A stretch of DNA of 64,000 bases from Acidimicrobiales bacterium (GTDB lineage Bacteria; Actinomycetota; Acidimicrobiia; Acidimicrobiales; Aldehydirespiratoraceae), in NCBI GenBank assembly GCA_033344915.1, contig JAWPML010000001.1, positions 2,104,369 to 2,168,368 on the forward strand, given 5' to 3'. Below, piece after piece: positions 31,784 to 40,670 of the stretch. Position numbers and translations under genes: made by a program. The notes beneath the pieces are model-generated. The model did not search any database and was not told the DNA's origin. It saw only the letters and a program-made list of their open reading frames with translations. The stretch's first letter is position 1, and each line of letters starts with the position of its first letter.

Positions 31784-32899
31784 TCAGGTCAGGACCTCGG
31801 TGACCAGCTCGATGACCCGGTCGACCTGGTCGTCGCGCAGGTCGATGTGCATCGGCAACGAGAGCACGTGGTCGGCGAACCAGTGGGCCGCGGGGAGATA
31901 CGCCGGCTTGTAGACCGGATAGCGGTCGTTCGCCTTGTAGTGCACGCCGGCCCCCACACCATGGTCCCGGAGATGGGCGAGCACTCGGTCCCGGCCCTCC
32001 TCGAACGTGACCGCGAAGAGGTAGTGCGCGGAGATCCGGTCCTTGTCGTGGCGCATCGGCTCGACACCGTCGAGGGTCGCGAGACCGGCCCGGTAGCGGT
32101 CCGCGATCTCGGCGCGGCGGGCGTTCCCGGCGTCGAGCGTGGACAATCCCGCCCGGCCGATCGCGGCGTTCAGATCACTCATCGTCGACCGGAAGCCGAC
32201 CTCTGCGACGTCGTACTCCCAGTGGTAGCCGGTCTCGGTGTGGCGCTCGTAGGTGTCGGCGTCGATCCCCATCCAGCGCAGCCGGCGGGCGCGCGCCGCG
32301 AGCTCGCCATCGCCGATCATCAGTGCACCGCCGTCGACCGTGGACAGGTTCTTCGTCGACTGGAACGAGAACGCGCACAGCCCGCCGTGCGAGCCGATCG
32401 GCCGGCCCCGGTAGCTCGCGCCGAGCGCATGGGCACCGTCCTCGATCACGACGAGTTCGTGGCGTCGAGCCAGCTCGTACACGCCGTCGAGGTCACACGG
32501 GTAGCCCGCGTAATGCACGACCATGATCGCCCGGGTGGCCTCGGTGATCTGCGCCGCGATCGAGTCCACGTCGATGTTGCCGGTGTGGGTCTCGATGTCG
32601 GCGAAGACCGGGACGAGCCCGGCCCACAGGAGGACATGGTTGGTCGACACGAACGTGTTCGGGGTGGTGATCACCTCTGCGCCGACTGGAAGGTCCGCCA
32701 GCGTCACCGCGATCTGCAGCGCATCGGTGGCCGATCCGGTCGCCACCGCGAAGGACGCGCCGACCCGGGCCGCGAGCTCCCGCTCGAACGCGCCAACCTC
32801 GCTCCCCGGTCCCGACCAGCCGGAGCGCAACACGTCGGCCGCCGCCCGGATGGCCTCCTCGGAGAAGGTCGAGGACGCGAGTGGGATCTCCTCATCCAT
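31784..32899 (-). CDS. DegT/DnrJ/EryC1/StrS-family PLP aminotransferase
   Basis: 371 residues. Fold-type I aminotransferase acting on keto-sugars in surface-polysaccharide or antibiotic sugar pathways. PLP-binding residues visible: D154 in VVIEDGAHALGA and Schiff-base K183 in SFQSTKNLSTVDGG. The N-terminal signature IPLASSTFSEEA and the GSATDALQIA loop also fit. The start at 32899 is chosen because it gives the family-standard start; the longer frame would run inside the upstream gene. It overlaps that gene by 8 bp, so translation is coupled. No nucleotide-sugar genes adjoin it, so the pathway is unassigned. Confidence 0.9.
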   Translation of the reverse strand: MDEEIPLASSTFSEEAIRAAADVLRSGWSGPGSEVGAFERELAARVGASFAVATGSATDALQIAVTLADLPVGAEVITTPNTFVSTNHVLLWAGLVPVFADIETHTGNIDVDSIAAQITEATRAIMVVHYAGYPCDLDGVYELARRHELVVIEDGAHALGASYRGRPIGSHGGLCAFSFQSTKNLSTVDGGALMIGDGELAARARRLRWMGIDADTYERHTETGYHWEYDVAEVGFRSTMSDLNAAIGRAGLSTLDAGNARRAEIADRYRAGLATLDGVEPMRHDKDRISAHYLFAVTFEEGRDRVLAHLRDHGVGAGVHYKANDRYPVYKPAYLPAAHWFADHVLSLPMHIDLRDDQVDRVIELVTEVLT

Positions 32900-33488
32900 C
32901 AGAGCTGCCCTCGGATCGGCGCCGAAGCGACATCGTGAGCCCACCGAGGCGATCCTCGTCCGACTCCTCCGGGTAGGTGATCGACAGCTGGAGTTCGTCC
33001 GGCCCGACGAAACGGATGGTGCGCAGGAAGCGGATCTCGCGCCGACTCGGCAACACGATCTCGACGCCACGCAACAAGAGCGAGTCGGCCGCCGGGTCGT
33101 GGGGCCCGTGCTCGATGTCGTACTGCTGATGCAAGGCGTTGACCGCGAAGGCGAAGTAGTCCTCGGAACGTCGGTCGGCGCCGTAGATCACCTTGCTGCT
33201 CGGCTCGCTCGCGGTGGCCGTCGGGAATGTGTCCGACTCGAGAAACCGACCGTCGAGGATCCAGCGGTTGACCATCCGACCGCCCATCGACAGCGCAGGG
33301 CGATCGGTGCGCACCTGCCAGCGCCCGTCGACGTCCCACTCACCGACCATGCGGGCCAGGACGGGGTCGACCCCCGGGCGTTCGAGCGGCGTTCCCATCA
33401 TCTCGAGGACATCCGTGTACTCGGGTCCCCACGCGATCGGGGGCCGCGCCTCGTCCGCCTCCGTCCGGTCACCATGTGCGTCCCCCAC
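32892..33488 (-). CDS. DUF1579-like protein
   Basis: 198 residues. Contains LARMVGEWDVDGRWQV and NRWILDGRFLESD with later strands YFAFAVNALHQQYDIEHG; this is the lipocalin-like beta-barrel pattern of DUF1579 proteins ('G-x-W-x-x-x-G-x-x' start, 'W-I-L-D-G-R-F-L'). No catalytic residues are obvious, and a small-molecule-binding role is possible. First gene of a two-gene unit with the aminotransferase (8-bp overlap); the promoter would be in the 67 bp after the TetR gene stop. Confidence 0.7.
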   Translation of the reverse strand: MGDAHGDRTEADEARPPIAWGPEYTDVLEMMGTPLERPGVDPVLARMVGEWDVDGRWQVRTDRPALSMGGRMVNRWILDGRFLESDTFPTATASEPSSKVIYGADRRSEDYFAFAVNALHQQYDIEHGPHDPAADSLLLRGVEIVLPSRREIRFLRTIRFVGPDELQLSITYPEESDEDRLGGLTMSLRRRSEGSSDG

Positions 33489-33555: not shown

Positions 33556-34143
33556 CTAGGGTTCGACGGCGAGCGCAGCCCGCAGGAAGCGGATCAGCTC
33601 CTGGCGGCGACCGACCGTTGCCCGCAGGGTCGGCGCCATGCCGAGCGCCCGCTGCACCTCGAGCTCGGTCGCGACCCCGACCACGGTGGAGTACAGCGAC
33701 AGCAGGAGCATCGACGGGTCGGACCGACGCAGACGTCCGGCGTCCATCTCCCGTTCGAGGAAGTCTCGGGCCCGGTCGAAGGTCGGGGCGACATGACCGC
33801 CGAGCCGGGCGGCGACCGCCGATCCCGGACGGGTGACCTCGCGCACGAGGCCGAGTAGTTCGGGACGGCGCACGGCGAGCCGGAACACCCGGCGCACGAT
33901 CGCCTCCACCTGGGCGATTCCGGTGAGCCCGCGGGATGCCTCGGCGTCGAAGAGCTTGACGAGATCGGCGGCGGCCTCGTCGACCACGGCATCGAACAGC
34001 GCCTGCTTCGACGGGAAGTAGTAGAGGATCGTCTGCTTGCGCACGCCGAGCTGATCGGCGAGCGCGTCGAGCGAGGTCGCGGCGTAGCCGCCCGTGCCGT
34101 AGGCCACGAGCGCGGCCGCCAGGATGCGCTCCCGAGTGCTCAT
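33556..34143 (-). CDS. TetR-family regulator of the acyl reductase operon
   Basis: 195 residues. HTH at the N-terminus: RERILAAALVAYGTGGYAAT, SLDALADQLGVRKQTILYYF, PSKQALFDAVVDE. The C-terminal part resembles TetR_C domains of lipid-type regulators, but the ligand is unknown. Divergent from the acyl reductase-HAD gene; the 20-bp perfect palindrome at 34165-34184 lies between, with an extra half-site TCTCTACCA at 34151-34159 close to the tetR start, so it very likely represses itself and the operon. Confidence 0.88.
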   Translation of the reverse strand: MSTRERILAAALVAYGTGGYAATSLDALADQLGVRKQTILYYFPSKQALFDAVVDEAAADLVKLFDAEASRGLTGIAQVEAIVRRVFRLAVRRPELLGLVREVTRPGSAVAARLGGHVAPTFDRARDFLEREMDAGRLRRSDPSMLLLSLYSTVVGVATELEVQRALGMAPTLRATVGRRQELIRFLRAALAVEP

Positions 34144-34164
34144 CGCTCCATCTCTACCATCCCG

Positions 34165-34184
34165 TCTCTACCAATTGGTAGAGA
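34165..34184. promoter_or_regulatory. 20-bp perfect palindromic TetR operator
   Basis: TCTCTACCAATTGGTAGAGA, a perfect two-fold palindrome centred in the 61-bp divergent region, about 20 bp upstream of the acyl reductase start. A single half-site (TCTCTACCA) is repeated at 34151-34159. Confidence 0.82.
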
Positions 34185-34204
34185 GATTTGCTAGAACCAG
34201 TCAT

Positions 34205-36634
34205 GTGATCCGGGAGGAGTTGAACCAGACGCGCATCGCCGTCACCGGCGCGACCGGCTTCCTCGGCACCGCGCTCGTGGAGCGGCTCCTGCGCTGCGCC
34301 CCGGACTGTGAACTCGTGCTGATCGTGCGGCCCGGCCGCCGTGGCGCACAGCACCGCGTCGACCGCGACATCCTCCGCAACGACGCGTTCGACCGGCTGC
34401 GCGACGAACACCAGGCGGCCGTCGACGCCGGCACCACCACCGAGACGTTCGACGAGATGTGTGCCCGCCGGGTCACCGGCGTGGCCGGCGACGTGGGAAC
34501 CGACGGCCTGGGCCTCGACGACGAGGGCCTCGCGCACCTGGCGACGTGCGACCTGGCGATCCACTCCGCCGCGACGGTGAGCTTCGACTCCGCCCTCGAC
34601 GACGCCGTCGAAGTCAACCTCCTCGGCCCCACCCGCTTCGCCCAGGCACTCCAGGCCGCGGCGGAGATCCGCACCGAACCGACCCGCACCGGCCGTCCGC
34701 CCGGCGAGCCGGCCCACCTCGTGGCGGTCTCGACGTGCTACGTCGCCGGCAGCCGTCGGGGCAAGGCGCCCGAGGAGCTGGTGAACGACTCGCCGTTCTT
34801 CGTGGACGTCGACTGGCGGGCCGAGGTCGACAACGCCCGCCGGGCCCGCATCGCCAACGAGCAGGAGAGCCGCACACCGTCGCGCCTCCAGGAACTCCGC
34901 AAGGAGGCCCACCGCCAGCTCGGCGCCGCGGGCACGCCGGCGCTCGCCGAGAAGGTCGAGCAGCTCCGCCAACGCTGGGTCGGCGAACAGATGACCGACG
35001 CCGGACGCGCCCGAGCGAGCTCGCTCGGCTTCCCCGACGCCTACGCGTTCACCAAATCGCTCGGCGAACGGGCCCTCGGCGAGAGCCGCGGCGACGTGCC
35101 GGTCAGCATCGTGCGGCCCTCCATCATCGAATCGGCCCTCGCCGAACCGGTGCCCGGCTGGATCCGCGGCTTCCGGATGGCCGAGCCCGTGATCGCCGCC
35201 TACGCCCGCGGCCTCCTCGTCGAGTTCCCCGGGGTGCCCGAGGGAACGATCGACGTCATCCCGGTCGATCTCGTGGTCGCCACGATCCTCGCCGTGGCCG
35301 CCCGCGGCCCGGAGTTCGACGACCAGGGCAACCACACGCCCGATGTCGTCCAGATCGCGTCGGGCGCCGCCAATCCGCTGAAGTACGGCCAGCTCGTCGA
35401 TCTCGTGCAGGCGTGGTTCACGGAGCGTCCGGTGTACGACGAGTACAACCAGCCGATCTCGATCCCCGACTGGAGCTTCCCCGGCCGCGGCCGCGTGTCG
35501 AAGCAGCTCAAACGGGCCCGCCGCGCCCTCGACCTCGGCGAGCGCGTCCTCGACACCCTCCCGCTGCGCGGCAAGCAGGCAGACCTCGGTGCCGAGCTGG
35601 AGGAACGCCGGGAGCAGCTCGAACGGGCCGGCGGCTATGTGGAGCTCTACGGCGCCTACGCCGAGTGCGAGGCGATCTACCAGCTCGAGCGGCTCTACCG
35701 ACTGTGGGGTTCGCTCGACGACGACGACCGGGCCGAGTTCGTGATGGATCCGGTGGCCGTCGACTGGCCGACCTACATCAACGAGATCCAGCTGCCGTCC
35801 ACCGTCAAGCAAGCCCGGCTCAAGATGGCGCCGGGGCGCAAGGTGAGTGTCGGCCGCAACGAGCGCATCCGCAAGAACGTGCTGTCGCCGGAGCGCCAGC
35901 TGGCCGTCTTCGATCTCGAGAACACCCTGATCGCGAGCAATGTCGTCGCCAGTTACGCGTGGCTGGCGACCCGCCGGCTCGACACCCCCGACCGCATCCG
36001 CCTCACCGCGAAGACGATCCGCGAAGCGCCGACCCTGCTGTCACTGGACCGGGCCGACCGGTCGGACTTCCTGCGCTACTTCTACCGCCGGTTCGACAAC
36101 GCCGCCGTCGACCGACTCGACCACGACGCGATGGAGATGATGAGCGATCTGCTCATCACCAAGTCGTTCCCCGACGGCATCCGCCGGGTGCGCGAGCACC
36201 GTCGGCTCGGTCACCGCACGCTGCTCATCACGGGGGCGCTCGACCTCGTGGTCCAGCCGTTGCGGCCGTTGTTCGACGACATCGTGGCGGCGGAGATGAC
36301 CTCCGTCGACGGCGTCTACACCGGGCGCCTCTCGAGCGTGCCGCCCACCGGCGAGGCCCGCTACCAGACCCTCGTCGACTACGCCGACGAGCACGACATC
36401 GACCTCCGCGAGTCGGTGGCCTACGCCGACTCGTCGTCGGATCTCCCGATGCTGGAGGCCGTCGGCTTCCCGGTCGCCGTCAACGCCGAGACGAAGCTCG
36501 CCGCCATCGCCCGCAAACGGGGCTGGCTGATCGAGCACTGGTCCAAGTCCGCGGGCGCCCCCAACCGGGTCGTCCCGATCGGTCCCCGCACCCATCGCGG
36601 GCCGATCCGCAACCGAAGGGGCATCCGTGCCTGA
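34205..36634 (+). CDS. Fatty acyl-CoA reductase (SDR)-HAD fusion protein
   Basis: 809 residues. The N-terminal ~500 residues are an extended SDR of the fatty acyl-CoA reductase type: nucleotide loop VTGATGFLGTALVERLL, RRVTGVAGDVG, AATVSFD, VSTCYVAG, catalytic Y-A-F-T-K in DAYAFTKSLGE, and VRPSIIESAL. It would reduce an acyl-CoA or acyl-ACP to aldehyde or alcohol. The C-terminal ~220 residues are a HAD-IB-like domain: AVFDLENTLIASN, LLITGALDLV and YADSSSDLPMLEAVG; the second motif I Asp is Glu. The best start is the GTG at 34205, apparently leaderless; a GGGAGGAG is too close to a TTG at 34220 to serve it. It overlaps the next gene by 8 bp. Repressed by the adjacent TetR, by inference. Confidence 0.82.
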   Translation: MIREELNQTRIAVTGATGFLGTALVERLLRCAPDCELVLIVRPGRRGAQHRVDRDILRNDAFDRLRDEHQAAVDAGTTTETFDEMCARRVTGVAGDVGTDGLGLDDEGLAHLATCDLAIHSAATVSFDSALDDAVEVNLLGPTRFAQALQAAAEIRTEPTRTGRPPGEPAHLVAVSTCYVAGSRRGKAPEELVNDSPFFVDVDWRAEVDNARRARIANEQESRTPSRLQELRKEAHRQLGAAGTPALAEKVEQLRQRWVGEQMTDAGRARASSLGFPDAYAFTKSLGERALGESRGDVPVSIVRPSIIESALAEPVPGWIRGFRMAEPVIAAYARGLLVEFPGVPEGTIDVIPVDLVVATILAVAARGPEFDDQGNHTPDVVQIASGAANPLKYGQLVDLVQAWFTERPVYDEYNQPISIPDWSFPGRGRVSKQLKRARRALDLGERVLDTLPLRGKQADLGAELEERREQLERAGGYVELYGAYAECEAIYQLERLYRLWGSLDDDDRAEFVMDPVAVDWPTYINEIQLPSTVKQARLKMAPGRKVSVGRNERIRKNVLSPERQLAVFDLENTLIASNVVASYAWLATRRLDTPDRIRLTAKTIREAPTLLSLDRADRSDFLRYFYRRFDNAAVDRLDHDAMEMMSDLLITKSFPDGIRRVREHRRLGHRTLLITGALDLVVQPLRPLFDDIVAAEMTSVDGVYTGRLSSVPPTGEARYQTLVDYADEHDIDLRESVAYADSSSDLPMLEAVGFPVAVNAETKLAAIARKRGWLIEHWSKSAGAPNRVVPIGPRTHRGPIRNRRGIRA

Positions 36635-38240
36635 TCCTCGAACGCAGGCACCGCGCCCGGGCTTCGTGCTCGACGTCGACTCCTCGACGCCGCCGATCCT
36701 GTTCCACCACGGCGAGCAGTTCCGCCTCGAACGGCTGCCCGCCGATCGCAGCCGCGTCATCTACCCGGCCGAGCCGCTGCCGGGCCTCGACGACCCCGAC
36801 GAGTCGATCCGCCAGGCGCTGCTCAACCCGATCGACGACGATCCGCTCCCCACGCTGCTCACGCCGGGCATGAAGCTGACCATCGCCTTCGACGACCTGT
36901 CGCTGCCGCTGCCGTCGATGCGCAAGCCCGACATCCGCCAGCGCATCATCGAGCAGGTGCTCGACATGGCCGCAGCGGCCGGCGTGGACGACGTCCACCT
37001 CATCGCCGCGCTGGCGCTGCACCGCCGGATGACCGAGGCGGAGCTGCGCCACGCCCTCGGCGATCGGATCTACGACGCCTTCGCGCCCCAGGACGCGCTC
37101 TACAACCACGACGCCGAGGACCCCGACGGCATGGTCGAGCTCGGGCTGACCCGCCACGACGAGCAGGTCACGATGAACCGGCGGGCGGCCGAGTCCGACC
37201 TGCTCATCTACGTCAACCTCAACATCGTCTCGATGGACGGCGGCTGGAAGTCCACCGCCACCGGCCTCTCCGGCTACTCGGGCATCCGTCATCACCACAA
37301 CGTGAAGACGATGCAGGAGTCGAAGAGCTTCATGGATCGCCACGCGTCGGAGCTGCACCACTCGAACTGGCGCCAGGGCGAGGTCATCAAGACCCACGGT
37401 CCTCGCATCTTCCAGATCGAGACCACGATCAACAACAACACGTTCGGCTACGACGGCCCCCTCCACGTGCTCCAGAAGCGCGAATGGGAATGGTCGACGA
37501 AGGACCGGGCGACCTTCATCGCCATGCAGAAGGGGCTCGACGCCATGCCGTCGTCGGCCCGCCGCAAGATCTTCCAGAGCTGGAAGGCGCCCTACGAGCT
37601 CACCTCCGTGCAGGCCGGCGACGTCGAAGCGGTCCATGAGAAGACGCTGCAGCACTGCTTCGACCAGCACATCGTGCCGGTCGAGGGGCAGACCGACGTG
37701 CTCACCTTCGGGCTCCCCTACATCTGCCCGTACAACGTGAACTCGGTGATGAACCCGATCCTCGTGATGTGTCTCGGGCTCGGCTACTTCTTCAACATGT
37801 ACCGGGGCAAGCCGCTCGTGCGCGAGGGCGGCGTGCTGATCATGAGCCACCCGGCCCCGTGGGAGTTCCACCCGGTCCATCACCCGAGCTACATCGACTT
37901 CTTCGAGGAGGTGCTGGCCGACACCACCGACCCGCTCGAGATCGAGGCCAAGTACGAAAAGCAGTTCGCCGAGGACGAGTGGTACATCCACCTGTACCGC
38001 AACAGCTACGCGTACCACGGCGTCCACCCGTTCTACATGTGGTACTGGGGCGCCCACGCGCTGCAGTACCTGGGCCGCGTGATCATCGTCGGCGGCGACC
38101 CGAAGTCCGTGCGCCGACTCGGCTTCACCCCCGCGTCCACCATGCAGGACGCGCTCGAGCTCGCGTCCGACGTCGTCGGCCCCCGCCCCTCGATCACCCA
38201 CCTTCACAACCCGCCCATCCTCATGGCCGACGTGACATGA
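36627..38240 (+). CDS. LarA-like (DUF2088) protein, lactate-racemase fold
   Basis: 537 residues from a GTG with GAAGGGG upstream. The N-terminal domain follows LarA: IAFDDLSLPLPSMRKPDI and IAALALHRRMTEAELRHALG (His132). The Lys that carries the nickel-pincer cofactor in LarA appears conserved as K208 in GGWKSTATGLSGYSGI, followed by a His cluster HHHN (222-224). The C-terminal half is longer than in LarA (~425 aa), with Trp/Tyr/His-rich stretches (YAYHGVHPFYMWYWGAHALQ). A racemase or epimerase acting on a 2-hydroxy lipid or acid would fit; the true reaction is unknown. Middle gene of the operon, coupled to the reductase. Confidence 0.72.
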   Translation: MPDPRTQAPRPGFVLDVDSSTPPILFHHGEQFRLERLPADRSRVIYPAEPLPGLDDPDESIRQALLNPIDDDPLPTLLTPGMKLTIAFDDLSLPLPSMRKPDIRQRIIEQVLDMAAAAGVDDVHLIAALALHRRMTEAELRHALGDRIYDAFAPQDALYNHDAEDPDGMVELGLTRHDEQVTMNRRAAESDLLIYVNLNIVSMDGGWKSTATGLSGYSGIRHHHNVKTMQESKSFMDRHASELHHSNWRQGEVIKTHGPRIFQIETTINNNTFGYDGPLHVLQKREWEWSTKDRATFIAMQKGLDAMPSSARRKIFQSWKAPYELTSVQAGDVEAVHEKTLQHCFDQHIVPVEGQTDVLTFGLPYICPYNVNSVMNPILVMCLGLGYFFNMYRGKPLVREGGVLIMSHPAPWEFHPVHHPSYIDFFEEVLADTTDPLEIEAKYEKQFAEDEWYIHLYRNSYAYHGVHPFYMWYWGAHALQYLGRVIIVGGDPKSVRRLGFTPASTMQDALELASDVVGPRPSITHLHNPPILMADVT

Positions 38241-38270
38241 CCGCCCCGCCGACCCTCCCCCTCCTGTTCG

Positions 38271-38344
38271 CCCCAAACCCCCCGTTCTGGGTGAACGGGG
38301 GCGCGGATTCCAGCCGTATGTTCACCCAGAACGCGGGTTTGGGG
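38271..38344. repeat. Long imperfect inverted repeat inside the lipid operon
   Basis: Arms of 26 and 25 nt (38271-38296 and 38320-38344) pairing except for a one-base bulge and one mismatch, with a 23-nt loop. It fills most of the 124-bp gap between the LarA-like and PlsC genes. No U-tract follows; it could be an attenuator, a processing site or a mobile palindrome. Confidence 0.7.
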
Positions 38345-38364
38345 GGGAACGCGGGGGTGGGGGC

Positions 38365-39318
38365 ATGAGCAAGCTCGCGAAGCGGCTGGGGGTGCCGGGG
38401 GTGCCGGCGGCGCTGTCGCCGGTGCGGCGGTTCCGGGCGCTCGGGTTTCCGTACCGGGCGCCGACGACGCCGCGGGGCGTGGCCCCGGCCGTCGTCGAGA
38501 AGACGACCGGCGCCCACTACGACACGGCGTGGGCGCGGCGCATGCCGGCGCGCATGGCTCGTGCCGCGATCGTGGACGGGCCGATGCGGCTCGTCGTGTC
38601 CGGCCTCGCCGCACCCGACCGACGGGGCCAGGACCGGCTCGATCATCTGACGGGCCCGGCGATCTTCGCCGCGAACCACCACAGCCATCTCGACACGCCC
38701 CTGTTGCTGACGTCCATCCCCGAGCCGTGGCGCCACAAGCTGGTCGTCGGTGCCGCCGCCGACTACTTCTTCGGGACCCGCCTCACCTCGGCGCTCTCGT
38801 CACTCGTGATCGGGGCGATCCCGATCGAGCGGAGCAAGGTCAACCGCCGCTCTGCGGATCAGGCCGCCGAACTCGTCGACGCCGGCTGGTCACTGCTCCT
38901 GTTCCCCGAGGGCGGTCGCAGCCCGGACGGCTGGGGCCAGCCGTTCCGTGGCGGCGCGGCCTACCTCGCGGCCAAGACGGGGCGACCGGTCGTGCCGATC
39001 CATCTCGAGGGCACCGGGCGCATCCTCCGCAAGGGCCGGTCGCTCCCCCAGCCGTCCACCACCTCGGTCACGTTCGGCCGGCCGTTGCTCCCCCGCGACG
39101 ACGAGAACGCCGCCCGCTTCGCCAGCCGCCTCGAAGCCGAGATCGCCGCCCTGGCCGACGAGGCCTCGACCGACTGGTACCGGGCCCGGATGCGGGCCCA
39201 CGCGGGCGACAGCCCTGGCCTGACCGGGCCCGACACCGGGGCGTGGCGTCGCTCGTGGGCGCTCGGCGACCGCAGCCGATCCGCGAAGCGCCGCGGCCGG
39301 CGCTGGCCGGAGATCTAG
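38365..39318 (+). CDS. PlsC-like 1-acylglycerol-3-phosphate acyltransferase
   Basis: 317 residues. The acyltransferase motifs are present: motif I NHHSHLDTPLLLT (H-x-x-x-x-D), block II around IGAIPIERSK, motif III LFPEGGRSPDGWG, and block IV GRPVVPIHLEG. A basic N-terminal extension of about 90 residues precedes them (MSKLAKRLGVPG, RRFRALGFPYRAP). It acts at the cytoplasmic membrane face on acyl chains. Third gene of the TetR-controlled operon, separated by the palindrome, suggesting that the reductase product (fatty alcohol or aldehyde) or its derivative is built into a lipid. Confidence 0.86.
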   Translation: MSKLAKRLGVPGVPAALSPVRRFRALGFPYRAPTTPRGVAPAVVEKTTGAHYDTAWARRMPARMARAAIVDGPMRLVVSGLAAPDRRGQDRLDHLTGPAIFAANHHSHLDTPLLLTSIPEPWRHKLVVGAAADYFFGTRLTSALSSLVIGAIPIERSKVNRRSADQAAELVDAGWSLLLFPEGGRSPDGWGQPFRGGAAYLAAKTGRPVVPIHLEGTGRILRKGRSLPQPSTTSVTFGRPLLPRDDENAARFASRLEAEIAALADEASTDWYRARMRAHAGDSPGLTGPDTGAWRRSWALGDRSRSAKRRGRRWPEI

Positions 39319-39794: not shown

Positions 39795-40670
39795 ATGCGC
39801 TTCTCCCTCGCCGAGTCGATGATCGATCCGTCCATGTACGCGCCGCTGGTGCAAGCGGCCGAGGCCGCCGGCTACGACTCCTTCGTCGTCCCCGACTCGA
39901 TCTGTTATCCCGAGGAGGGCGACAGCACCTATCCCTACAACGCCGACGGCACCCGCGAGTTCCTCGAGGGCAAACCGTTCATCGAACCCTTCTCGCTCAT
40001 CCCCGCGCTTGCCGCCGTGACCGAGTCCATCCGGTTCACGACGTTCGTGGTCAAGCTCCCGATCCGCCACCCGGTCATCACCGCGAAGCAGGTGACCTCC
40101 GTCGGTGTGATCACCGGCGGTCGGTTCGGGTTCGGCGTCGGTACGAGCCCGTGGCGTGAGGACTACGACATCACCCAGGTGCCGTGGGAACGCCGCGGCG
40201 CCCGCATGGACGAGTGCATCGAGATCATCAACGGGCTCCAGACGGGCGACCAGTTCGGCTACGACGGCGAGTTCTACGAGTTCCCCCCGTGCCAGCTGTG
40301 CCCGGTCCCCGAGCAGAAGGTGCCGATCCTCATCGGTGGCCACTCGAAGATGGCCCTCGCCCGCGCCGGTCGCCTCGGTGACGGATGGATGCACGCGGGT
40401 GGCGACGCCGCGGAACTCGCCCGCATGATGGAGACGGTGAACCAGCATCGCCTCGACGCCGGCCGCGCCGACCAGCCCTTCGAGGTGCACGCGATCTCCA
40501 TGGACGCCTACTCCGCCGACGGCATCGAGCGGCTCGAAGCAGCCGGCGTAACCGATGTGATCGTCGGCTTCCGCGACGCGTATCAGCCCGGGCCGGATCC
40601 GCAGACCCTCGACGAGAAGCTCGGGGCGATGCAGTGGTACGCCGACGAGGTCATCAGCAAGGTCCGCTGA
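39795..40670 (+). CDS. LLM-class flavin-dependent oxidoreductase
   Basis: 291 residues of the luciferase-like TIM barrel family, using FMN or, as usual in actinobacteria, F420. Motifs: start MRFSLAESMIDPSMYAPLVQ, then AAEAAGYDSFVVPDSICYPE, LPIRHPVITAKQVTSVGVIT, GGRFGFGVGTSPWREDYD, VPILIGGHSKMALARAGRLG and DGWMHAG. The CQLCP in the centre is unusual. The 'GGR...GVG.SPW' pattern is typical of F420-dependent members. Monocistronic; substrate unknown. Confidence 0.87.
   Translation: MRFSLAESMIDPSMYAPLVQAAEAAGYDSFVVPDSICYPEEGDSTYPYNADGTREFLEGKPFIEPFSLIPALAAVTESIRFTTFVVKLPIRHPVITAKQVTSVGVITGGRFGFGVGTSPWREDYDITQVPWERRGARMDECIEIINGLQTGDQFGYDGEFYEFPPCQLCPVPEQKVPILIGGHSKMALARAGRLGDGWMHAGGDAAELARMMETVNQHRLDAGRADQPFEVHAISMDAYSADGIERLEAAGVTDVIVGFRDAYQPGPDPQTLDEKLGAMQWYADEVISKVR

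Follow-up and report, generated by a model that had tools for sequence, protein, structure and literature searches.

What is produced by an operon which encodes a fatty acyl reductase (FAR), a protein resembling the lactate racemase LarA and a PlsC-type acyltransferase one after the other? This question is raised by a 64,000-nucleotide stretch of DNA from an Acidimicrobiales bacterium (GenBank assembly GCA_033344915.1, contig JAWPML010000001.1, positions 2,104,369 to 2,168,368), which is called the window here and in which all positions are counted unless a locus is named. A preliminary description made from the letters alone had seen a TetR-controlled set of three coupled genes and had proposed the synthesis of an unusual lipid, with the LarA-like enzyme epimerising a hydroxylated intermediate. 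As outlined below, it is near certain that the operon is a functional unit, a lipid is its likely product, and use of the nickel-pincer nucleotide (NPN) by the LarA-like protein is likely in the wider lineage. To the full reading, that the operon would be a dedicated lipid-biosynthesis unit yielding an alcohol- or alkyl-ether-containing glycerolipid with NPN-dependent hydride transfer by the LarA-like enzyme, we give about an even chance.

The unity of the operon was examined by comparison of loci. The window genome is a single contig of 4.48 Mb with a completeness of 96%, and with this genome counted the LarA-like protein was found in 57 of the 61 genomes searched. Fifty-six loci of the order were fetched from 55 of the 56 other LarA-bearing relatives (G031, in which the gene is split over two contigs, was omitted), and the operon genes were counted by tblastn, as simple calling of open reading frames (ORFs) had lost some real genes and had given two clusters opposite plsC and FAR-HAD which are read as artefacts. 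The gene for FAR fused to a HAD domain lies upstream of the LarA-like gene in 54 of these loci and plsC follows that gene in 53; contig edges truncate the other two and three, and the gene order is maintained in every untruncated locus of the order. Among the best 80 of 570 named relatives, which overlap the 56 loci and are mainly metagenome-assembled genomes of Acidimicrobiia including Candidatus Microthrix and Aquihabitans, FAR-HAD was found in 79 (one cut) and PlsC in 78 (two cut). Of 396 genomes drawn from across the phylum, 85 had a score above the cut-off of the profile NF052592 (LarAH14/15/16); 61 of the 85 lie outside the order, and 34 of these 61 loci were inspected along with six weaker LarA relatives of 23–43% identity which served as a negative control. 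FAR-HAD is upstream in 31 of the 34, missing in one and cut off in two, which gives 31 of 32 untruncated loci; a Zn alcohol dehydrogenase (ADH) is present in 33, and plsC follows at most 1.2 kb downstream in 23 and is cut off in two. The weaker relatives yielded FAR-HAD in 0 of 6, ADH in 0 of 6 and PlsC in 0 of 5 loci, one being cut off. Chance co-occurrence is thus ruled out by the order in the untruncated loci, by the frequency of FAR-HAD outside the order and by the lack of these neighbours beside the weaker relatives, and the neighbourhood survey, for which the preliminary description had named rare co-occurrence as the adverse outcome, came out in its favour. One outside locus, L229, has a LarA-like gene without FAR-HAD or ADH.

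The ADH, of about 390 residues, sits between the FAR-HAD and LarA-like genes in many lineages, and a representative matches Pfam ADH_N and ADH_zinc_N; the protein of locus L083 served as query for it. It is present in 18 of the 56 loci of the order, absent from 35 and cut off in three; in the window's family it is absent from the window and from each of the 32 fetched loci that allowed a judgement. On the tree of LarA-like proteins its presence changes four times. Raw counts of ADH and NPN-biosynthesis genes (neither 26, both 43, NPN only 16, ADH only 6) suggest a link; ADH hardly varies within independent pairs, so a test of ADH loss against NPN loss has no power. In one family outside the order, f45, further genes were seen in this neighbourhood: a protoglobin gene (L230:9807-10394) and a MOSC-domain protein gene (L237:7545-8243) stand between the ADH and LarA-like genes, and a family-5 solute-binding protein gene (SBP_bac_5), called as two separate ORFs, stands beside the LarA-like gene in five loci (L230:5176-6816 and L233-L236). 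The SBP_bac_5 family includes nickel-binding proteins, and a role of this neighbour in nickel supply is conceivable.

A gene for a TetR-family repressor (33556-34143, minus strand; Pfam TetR_N 52 bits) diverges from the operon, and the 20-bp operator of the preliminary description is indeed present at 34165-34184 as the perfect palindrome TCTCTACCAA/TTGGTAGAGA. Its core TACC[AG]NNTGGTA is shared by all 35 distinct intergenic regions between tetR and FAR, compared with a mean of 0.01 of 35 after dinucleotide shuffling. These regions are those of the window, of 32 of the 56 loci of the order and of the outside loci L226 and L227, each with a divergent TetR homologue; in the 24 uncounted loci of the order tetR was not found divergent, the region was cut off or too long, or it was a copy. 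A second set, from named contigs partly overlapping the first, had the core in 29 of 34 regions, and for the 16-bp core of the operator with at most one mismatch shuffling gave an expectation of 0.02 per window. The pattern CTACCANNTGGTAG has one copy in the 4.48-Mb genome, at the operator; its rarity alone proves little because a backward control pattern likewise matches once. The operator is real, and control of the conserved unit by TetR is supported. A wider regulon with the exact core was not found in the window genome, where the site is single. Outside the order, as judged by tblastn, a TetR-like gene is upstream and divergent in two loci and downstream on the operon strand in ten others.

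The three operon genes downstream of the operator are on the plus strand. The first ORF extends from 34124 to 36634, and the start of the FAR-HAD gene is read as the GTG at 34205, since the ATG at 34124 would place it inside tetR and ahead of the operator. The N-terminal part of the protein is a fatty acyl reductase domain (Pfam NAD_binding_4, 168.8 bits), the best match in the PDB is fatty acyl-CoA reductase 7eoz (1e-48), and both expected motifs are present as GATGFLG (GxTGFLG) and YAFTK (YxxxK); a pattern search in 131 pooled homologues recovered the first, as GxTGF[LV]G, in 97 and the second in 106. A match to the Sterile C-terminal domain is weak (22.4 bits, below the cut-off of 35.4). 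The C-terminal part matches Pfam HAD with 86 bits and the HAD-IB model TIGR01490 with 99.9 bits against a cut-off of 98.3. In this HAD domain (35903-36457) the motif reads FDLENTL, with DxE instead of DxD. Among the 131 homologues FDLENTL was found in 86, DxD in six and FDMEGTL in one, with no pattern match in 38; the six DxD proteins all belong to family f45 and read DVDGT, and four other loci outside the order have DMEGT or DVEGT.

The LarA-like gene (36627-38240) overlaps the end of the FAR-HAD gene by 8 bp, and plsC (38365-39318) closes the operon. The three genes had been described as coupled; in this genome plsC is not tightly coupled, as it stands behind a 124-bp gap (38241-38364, plus strand) which contains a strong hairpin (folding at -79.1 kcal/mol, z -3.9). 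This hairpin, a long imperfect inverted repeat, might act as an attenuator or be a mobile palindromic element; its exact 13-bp arms are absent from the loci of other genomes among 260 loci fetched. The PlsC protein (Pfam Acyltransferase, 68.7 bits) has the HX4D motif as NHHSHLD and the motif FPEGGRS, and in 98 pooled homologues the patterns NHHSHxD and [FY]PEGxRS were counted in 84 and 95. Its score of 51.6 bits with the lysophosphatidate subfamily TIGR00530 is under the cut-off of 102.95, so that acceptors other than lysophosphatidate come into question. The window genome has 11 PlsC-family acyltransferases, so that the PlsC of the operon is not the sole candidate for housekeeping. The three genes of the preliminary description stand at the positions given there.

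A lipid product is favoured because of the active-site motifs of FAR and PlsC, because of a PlsY neighbour in one family, and because of a gene in the window genome for a protein resembling alkyldihydroxyacetonephosphate synthase (AGPS). The PlsY gene is found just before FAR-HAD in four of the eight f45 loci, recognised in one by profile and in the others by clustering with that one. The AGPS-like gene (L260:3578-7910) encodes one of four FAD-oxidase_C proteins of the genome; two of these were compared with the PDB, and this one matched AGPS best (2e-52, the next class at 3e-36), in contrast to the second, which matches 2-hydroxyglutarate dehydrogenases and their kin. It is flanked by a glpD-like gene, whose start was read by eye, and a glycerol-kinase-like gene (274 bits, below cut-off). 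Because of the AGPS-like gene an alkyl-ether product is possible, and no more.

The LarA-like protein scores 893 bits with NF052592, against a cut-off of 740, and 70 bits with the lactate racemase model NF033504, below the cut-off of 460; the Lar_N domain is recognised by Pfam. An AlphaFold2 model calculated with 28 sequences had a pLDDT of 87.8, and the closest folds to it are 9q3k (Z 37.4 over 455 residues) and 9q3j (Z 34.2). These belong to LarA Sp and LarA Bw, two NPN proteins with a single catalytic histidine (PMC12611868), which share with the window's protein the fold, the Asp/Lys/His set and an Asn in place of the second His. They differ from it in sequence (24-26% identity), in residue Lys76 of LarA Sp, which corresponds to Leu93 of the window's protein, and, by the authors' account, in genome context (PMC12611868). 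In a phmmer alignment with LarA Sp, D90, H132 and K208 stand opposite Asp73, His115 and Lys195, and N199 aligns, between gaps, with Asn185, the residue which LarA Sp has instead of the second catalytic histidine. Residues 195-208 of the window's protein, the stretch aligned with that second histidine (H174), contain no His. H224 follows K208 at a distance of 16 residues, as His200 follows Lys184 in LarA. Mapped by phmmer alignment and this spacing, not by superposed coordinates, D90, H132, K208 and H224 match Asp72, His108, the NPN lysine Lys184 and the nickel histidine His200 of LarA, and they are invariant in 88 of 88 proteins (those of the window, of the order and of the outside loci above cut-off). 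A near full-length LarA-like protein was obtained from 93 of 97 loci, the other four being dropped.

LarA enzymes of known reaction are 2-hydroxy acid racemases or epimerases (PMC7583248, PMC11770544). As the second catalytic histidine is lacking, plain epimerisation by the LarA-like protein is doubtful. The protein has this lack, as well as the profile score above cut-off, in common with the LarAH14/15/16 proteins including Frankia LarAH14 (PMC7583248); groups 14 and 15 are described as being without the second histidine (PMC12611868), and for proteins missing such residues a different hydride-mediated reaction has been suggested as possible (PMC7583248). A link of these groups to FAR-HAD, ADH, PlsC or larE, larB and larC is not made in the main text of PMC7583248, its supplement excluded. 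LarAH15 is also the name of a Phytophthora gluconate 2-epimerase (PMC11770544), which may or may not belong to group 15 of PMC7583248.

Do these proteins use NPN? The best argument for NPN as part of the unit comes from its biosynthesis genes larE, larB and larC, which in some families stand next to the operon. They adjoin the plsC unit in six of the 34 outside loci, which belong to three families, none of them the window's. In L215, L218, L222 and L225 they follow plsC directly on the operon strand; the first domain of LarC from L218 is above the NCBIfam cut-off. In L207 they follow plsC directly with larE reversed, and all three score above the NCBIfam cut-offs; in L217, where LarE does so, they lie beyond tetR on the opposite strand. 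LarC was found in 30 of the 34 genomes outside the order that score above the NF052592 cut-off and in five of the six with weaker relatives. Within the order it is present in 18 of 21 LarA-bearing genomes outside the window's family, in 15 of 15 of a further set, and in 10 of 37 genomes of the window's family. The window genome has no match for LarC, and the best scores are 26 bits against a cut-off of 175 for LarB and 40 against 150 for LarE. This genomic linkage in three families, the absence of larB and larC from many LarA-bearing genomes, detailed below, and the ADH all go beyond the preliminary description.

From these elements the following scheme may be proposed. TetR would keep the operon off; release would come with a ligand, perhaps an intermediate of the acyl or alcohol type. 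From an acyl thioester the FAR domain would produce a fatty alcohol or aldehyde by reduction, and the HAD domain, joined in many lineages by the Zn ADH, may trim or re-oxidise an intermediate. The LarA-like enzyme would transfer a hydride on a hydroxylated intermediate with NPN held by Lys208 and His224; since one of the two catalytic histidines is kept, a one-sided redox step or a one-way isomerase seems more likely than racemisation. PlsC would add an acyl chain to a glycerolipid-type or diol acceptor, and the AGPS-like enzyme, encoded elsewhere, could accept the fatty alcohol. The most likely product would be an alcohol- or alkyl-ether-containing glycerolipid. In this scheme the unusual lipid of the preliminary description lives on, favoured by the FAR and PlsC motifs, PlsY and the AGPS-like gene; simple epimerisation by the LarA-like protein does not, given the lacking histidine and the failure of larC to match and of larB and larE to reach their cut-offs.

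The nearest described analogue found is the elb operon for ether lipids in Myxococcus xanthus (PMC9131029), which unites an FAR, a HAD protein and an AGPAT-like acyltransferase as the window operon does. There ElbD combines FAR, acyl-CoA synthetase, acyl carrier protein (ACP) and acyltransferase, and ElbB is the HAD protein. The domains are thus fused differently, FAR being fused in the window to HAD only, the window operon is without an acyl-CoA synthetase or ACP, and the account of elb mentions neither a LarA-like protein nor an ADH or NPN genes. The alkyl-ether route by FAR and AGPS shares with the window genome the FAR of the operon and the AGPS-like gene, and differs in that the latter is unlinked to the operon. 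A literature search, which did not cover supplementary tables and most subscription papers, found no paper linking NPN or LarA to lipid synthesis.

Several findings weigh against the full reading. On the side of the lipid, the acid-base Asp of HAD phosphatases is a Glu in the window's domain and in many lineages, plsC was not found in nine of the 34 outside loci, eight of which are all the loci of family f45, and the AGPS-like gene lies outside the operon and has GlcD as its nearest NCBIfam model with 153 bits against a cut-off of 568. The single ADH compared is nearest to ketose reductase, threonine and sorbitol dehydrogenases and matches inosose or idonate dehydrogenase models below their cut-offs, which makes a sugar or polyol substrate possible. 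On the side of the cofactor, the NPN-binding Arg75 of LarA aligns with Leu93, a position taken by Leu, Ile or Cys throughout the 88 proteins; in the four f43 loci among the six NPN-linked ones the LarC match is limited to the N-terminal 217-235 residues; Frankia LarAH14 was inactive in seven assays (PMC7583248); and, as larB, larC and larE do not reach their cut-offs in the window genome, the LarA-like protein there may be free of NPN.

A rival explanation takes up the last point. After loss of larB, larC and larE the LarA-like protein of the window's family may no longer use NPN and may, with fold and pocket retained, have turned to another metal or nucleotide or to a structural role, which we regard as a tentative possibility on the unlikely side. 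Of the 57 LarA-bearing genomes 29, the window's included, have neither larB nor larC, and completeness reaches 90% or more in 25 of the 29. LarC was found in 28 of the 61 genomes and LarB above cut-off in exactly the same 28, which argues that the absence of both is not random assembly loss; LarE was above cut-off in 29, a set which lacks G057 and has G037 and G048 in addition. All 28 genomes with LarB and LarC have the LarA-like protein, and the four genomes without the LarA-like protein have neither. The replacement of Arg75 by Leu and the view that group 16 possibly does not use NPN at all (PMC7583248) point in the same direction. Against it stands that D90, H132, K208 and H224 are unchanged in 32 of 32 LarC-minus as well as in 56 of 56 LarC-plus proteins, no relaxation of the site being visible.

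Two other explanations for the pattern were rejected. Incomplete assembly does not account for the missing genes, the window genome being one nearly complete contig and larB and larC coinciding genome by genome. A second LarA as the true client of larB and larC is not supported either, a further Lar_N protein being present in only four of the 57 genomes (G038, G041, G042 and G051), of which G038 and G042 have only a weak match; G031 shows two matches because one protein is divided between two contigs there. A side observation is that in one genus of the window's family the larC match falls into two pieces, with its C-terminal part, larE, larB and its N-terminal part in this order (G017:C78:25257-27916, also in G036, G008 and G028).

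Many bacteria obtain cobalamin from neighbours. By analogy NPN might be a cofactor shared among free-living bacteria, with the many members of the window's family that have lost larB, larC and larE, yet keep the enzyme and its aligned NPN-site residues, drawing on neighbours for it or for a precursor. In a rapidly built tree of 93 proteins 13 changes of the NPN label are needed, at least eight of which fall on well-supported branches, and such patchiness fits an auxotrophy of this kind; we nevertheless consider the proposal unlikely.

In another explanation, which appears improbable, the operon would serve neutral storage lipid, FAR delivering alcohols for wax esters and PlsC feeding triacylglycerol synthesis. 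It gains from Ilumatobacter, of the same class, having about 3.6 homologues of wax ester synthase/diacylglycerol acyltransferase (WS/DGAT) per genome and from the Marinobacter FAR that supplies wax-ester alcohols (PMC10351704). It leaves the LarA-like enzyme, the ADH and the adjoining larE, larB and larC unexplained, and the wax-ester synthase family matched none of the seven window proteins scanned between 32892 and 40670, the genome not having been searched for WS/DGAT. Equally improbable is a sugar-acid or polyol pathway, in which the LarA-like protein and a polyol-type ADH would act on a polyhydroxy compound that FAR-HAD and PlsC lipidate to a glycolipid: the neighbours of the one ADH compared, the link of the closest LarA structures to carbohydrate metabolism drawn by their authors (PMC12611868) and the solute-binding protein of the five f45 loci fit it, but the window's family lacks the ADH and yet retains the rest, and no sugar kinase was recognised among the selected neighbours scanned.

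Two genes flank the unit in the window. Upstream of tetR lies a gene for a DUF1579 protein (32892-33488, Pfam), and just 3' of the unit a gene for an F420-dependent oxidoreductase of the LLM class (39795-40670), with which 24 ORFs of the compared loci cluster.

If the glycerolipid reading with NPN-dependent hydride transfer is true, nickel-pincer chemistry enters lipid synthesis. The operon would then give the orphan LarAH14 group, whose tested member showed no activity, a context in which its function can be tested. The loss of NPN synthesis without visible loss of the site in the window's family poses the question of whether NPN is salvaged, has been replaced or is made by a second route.

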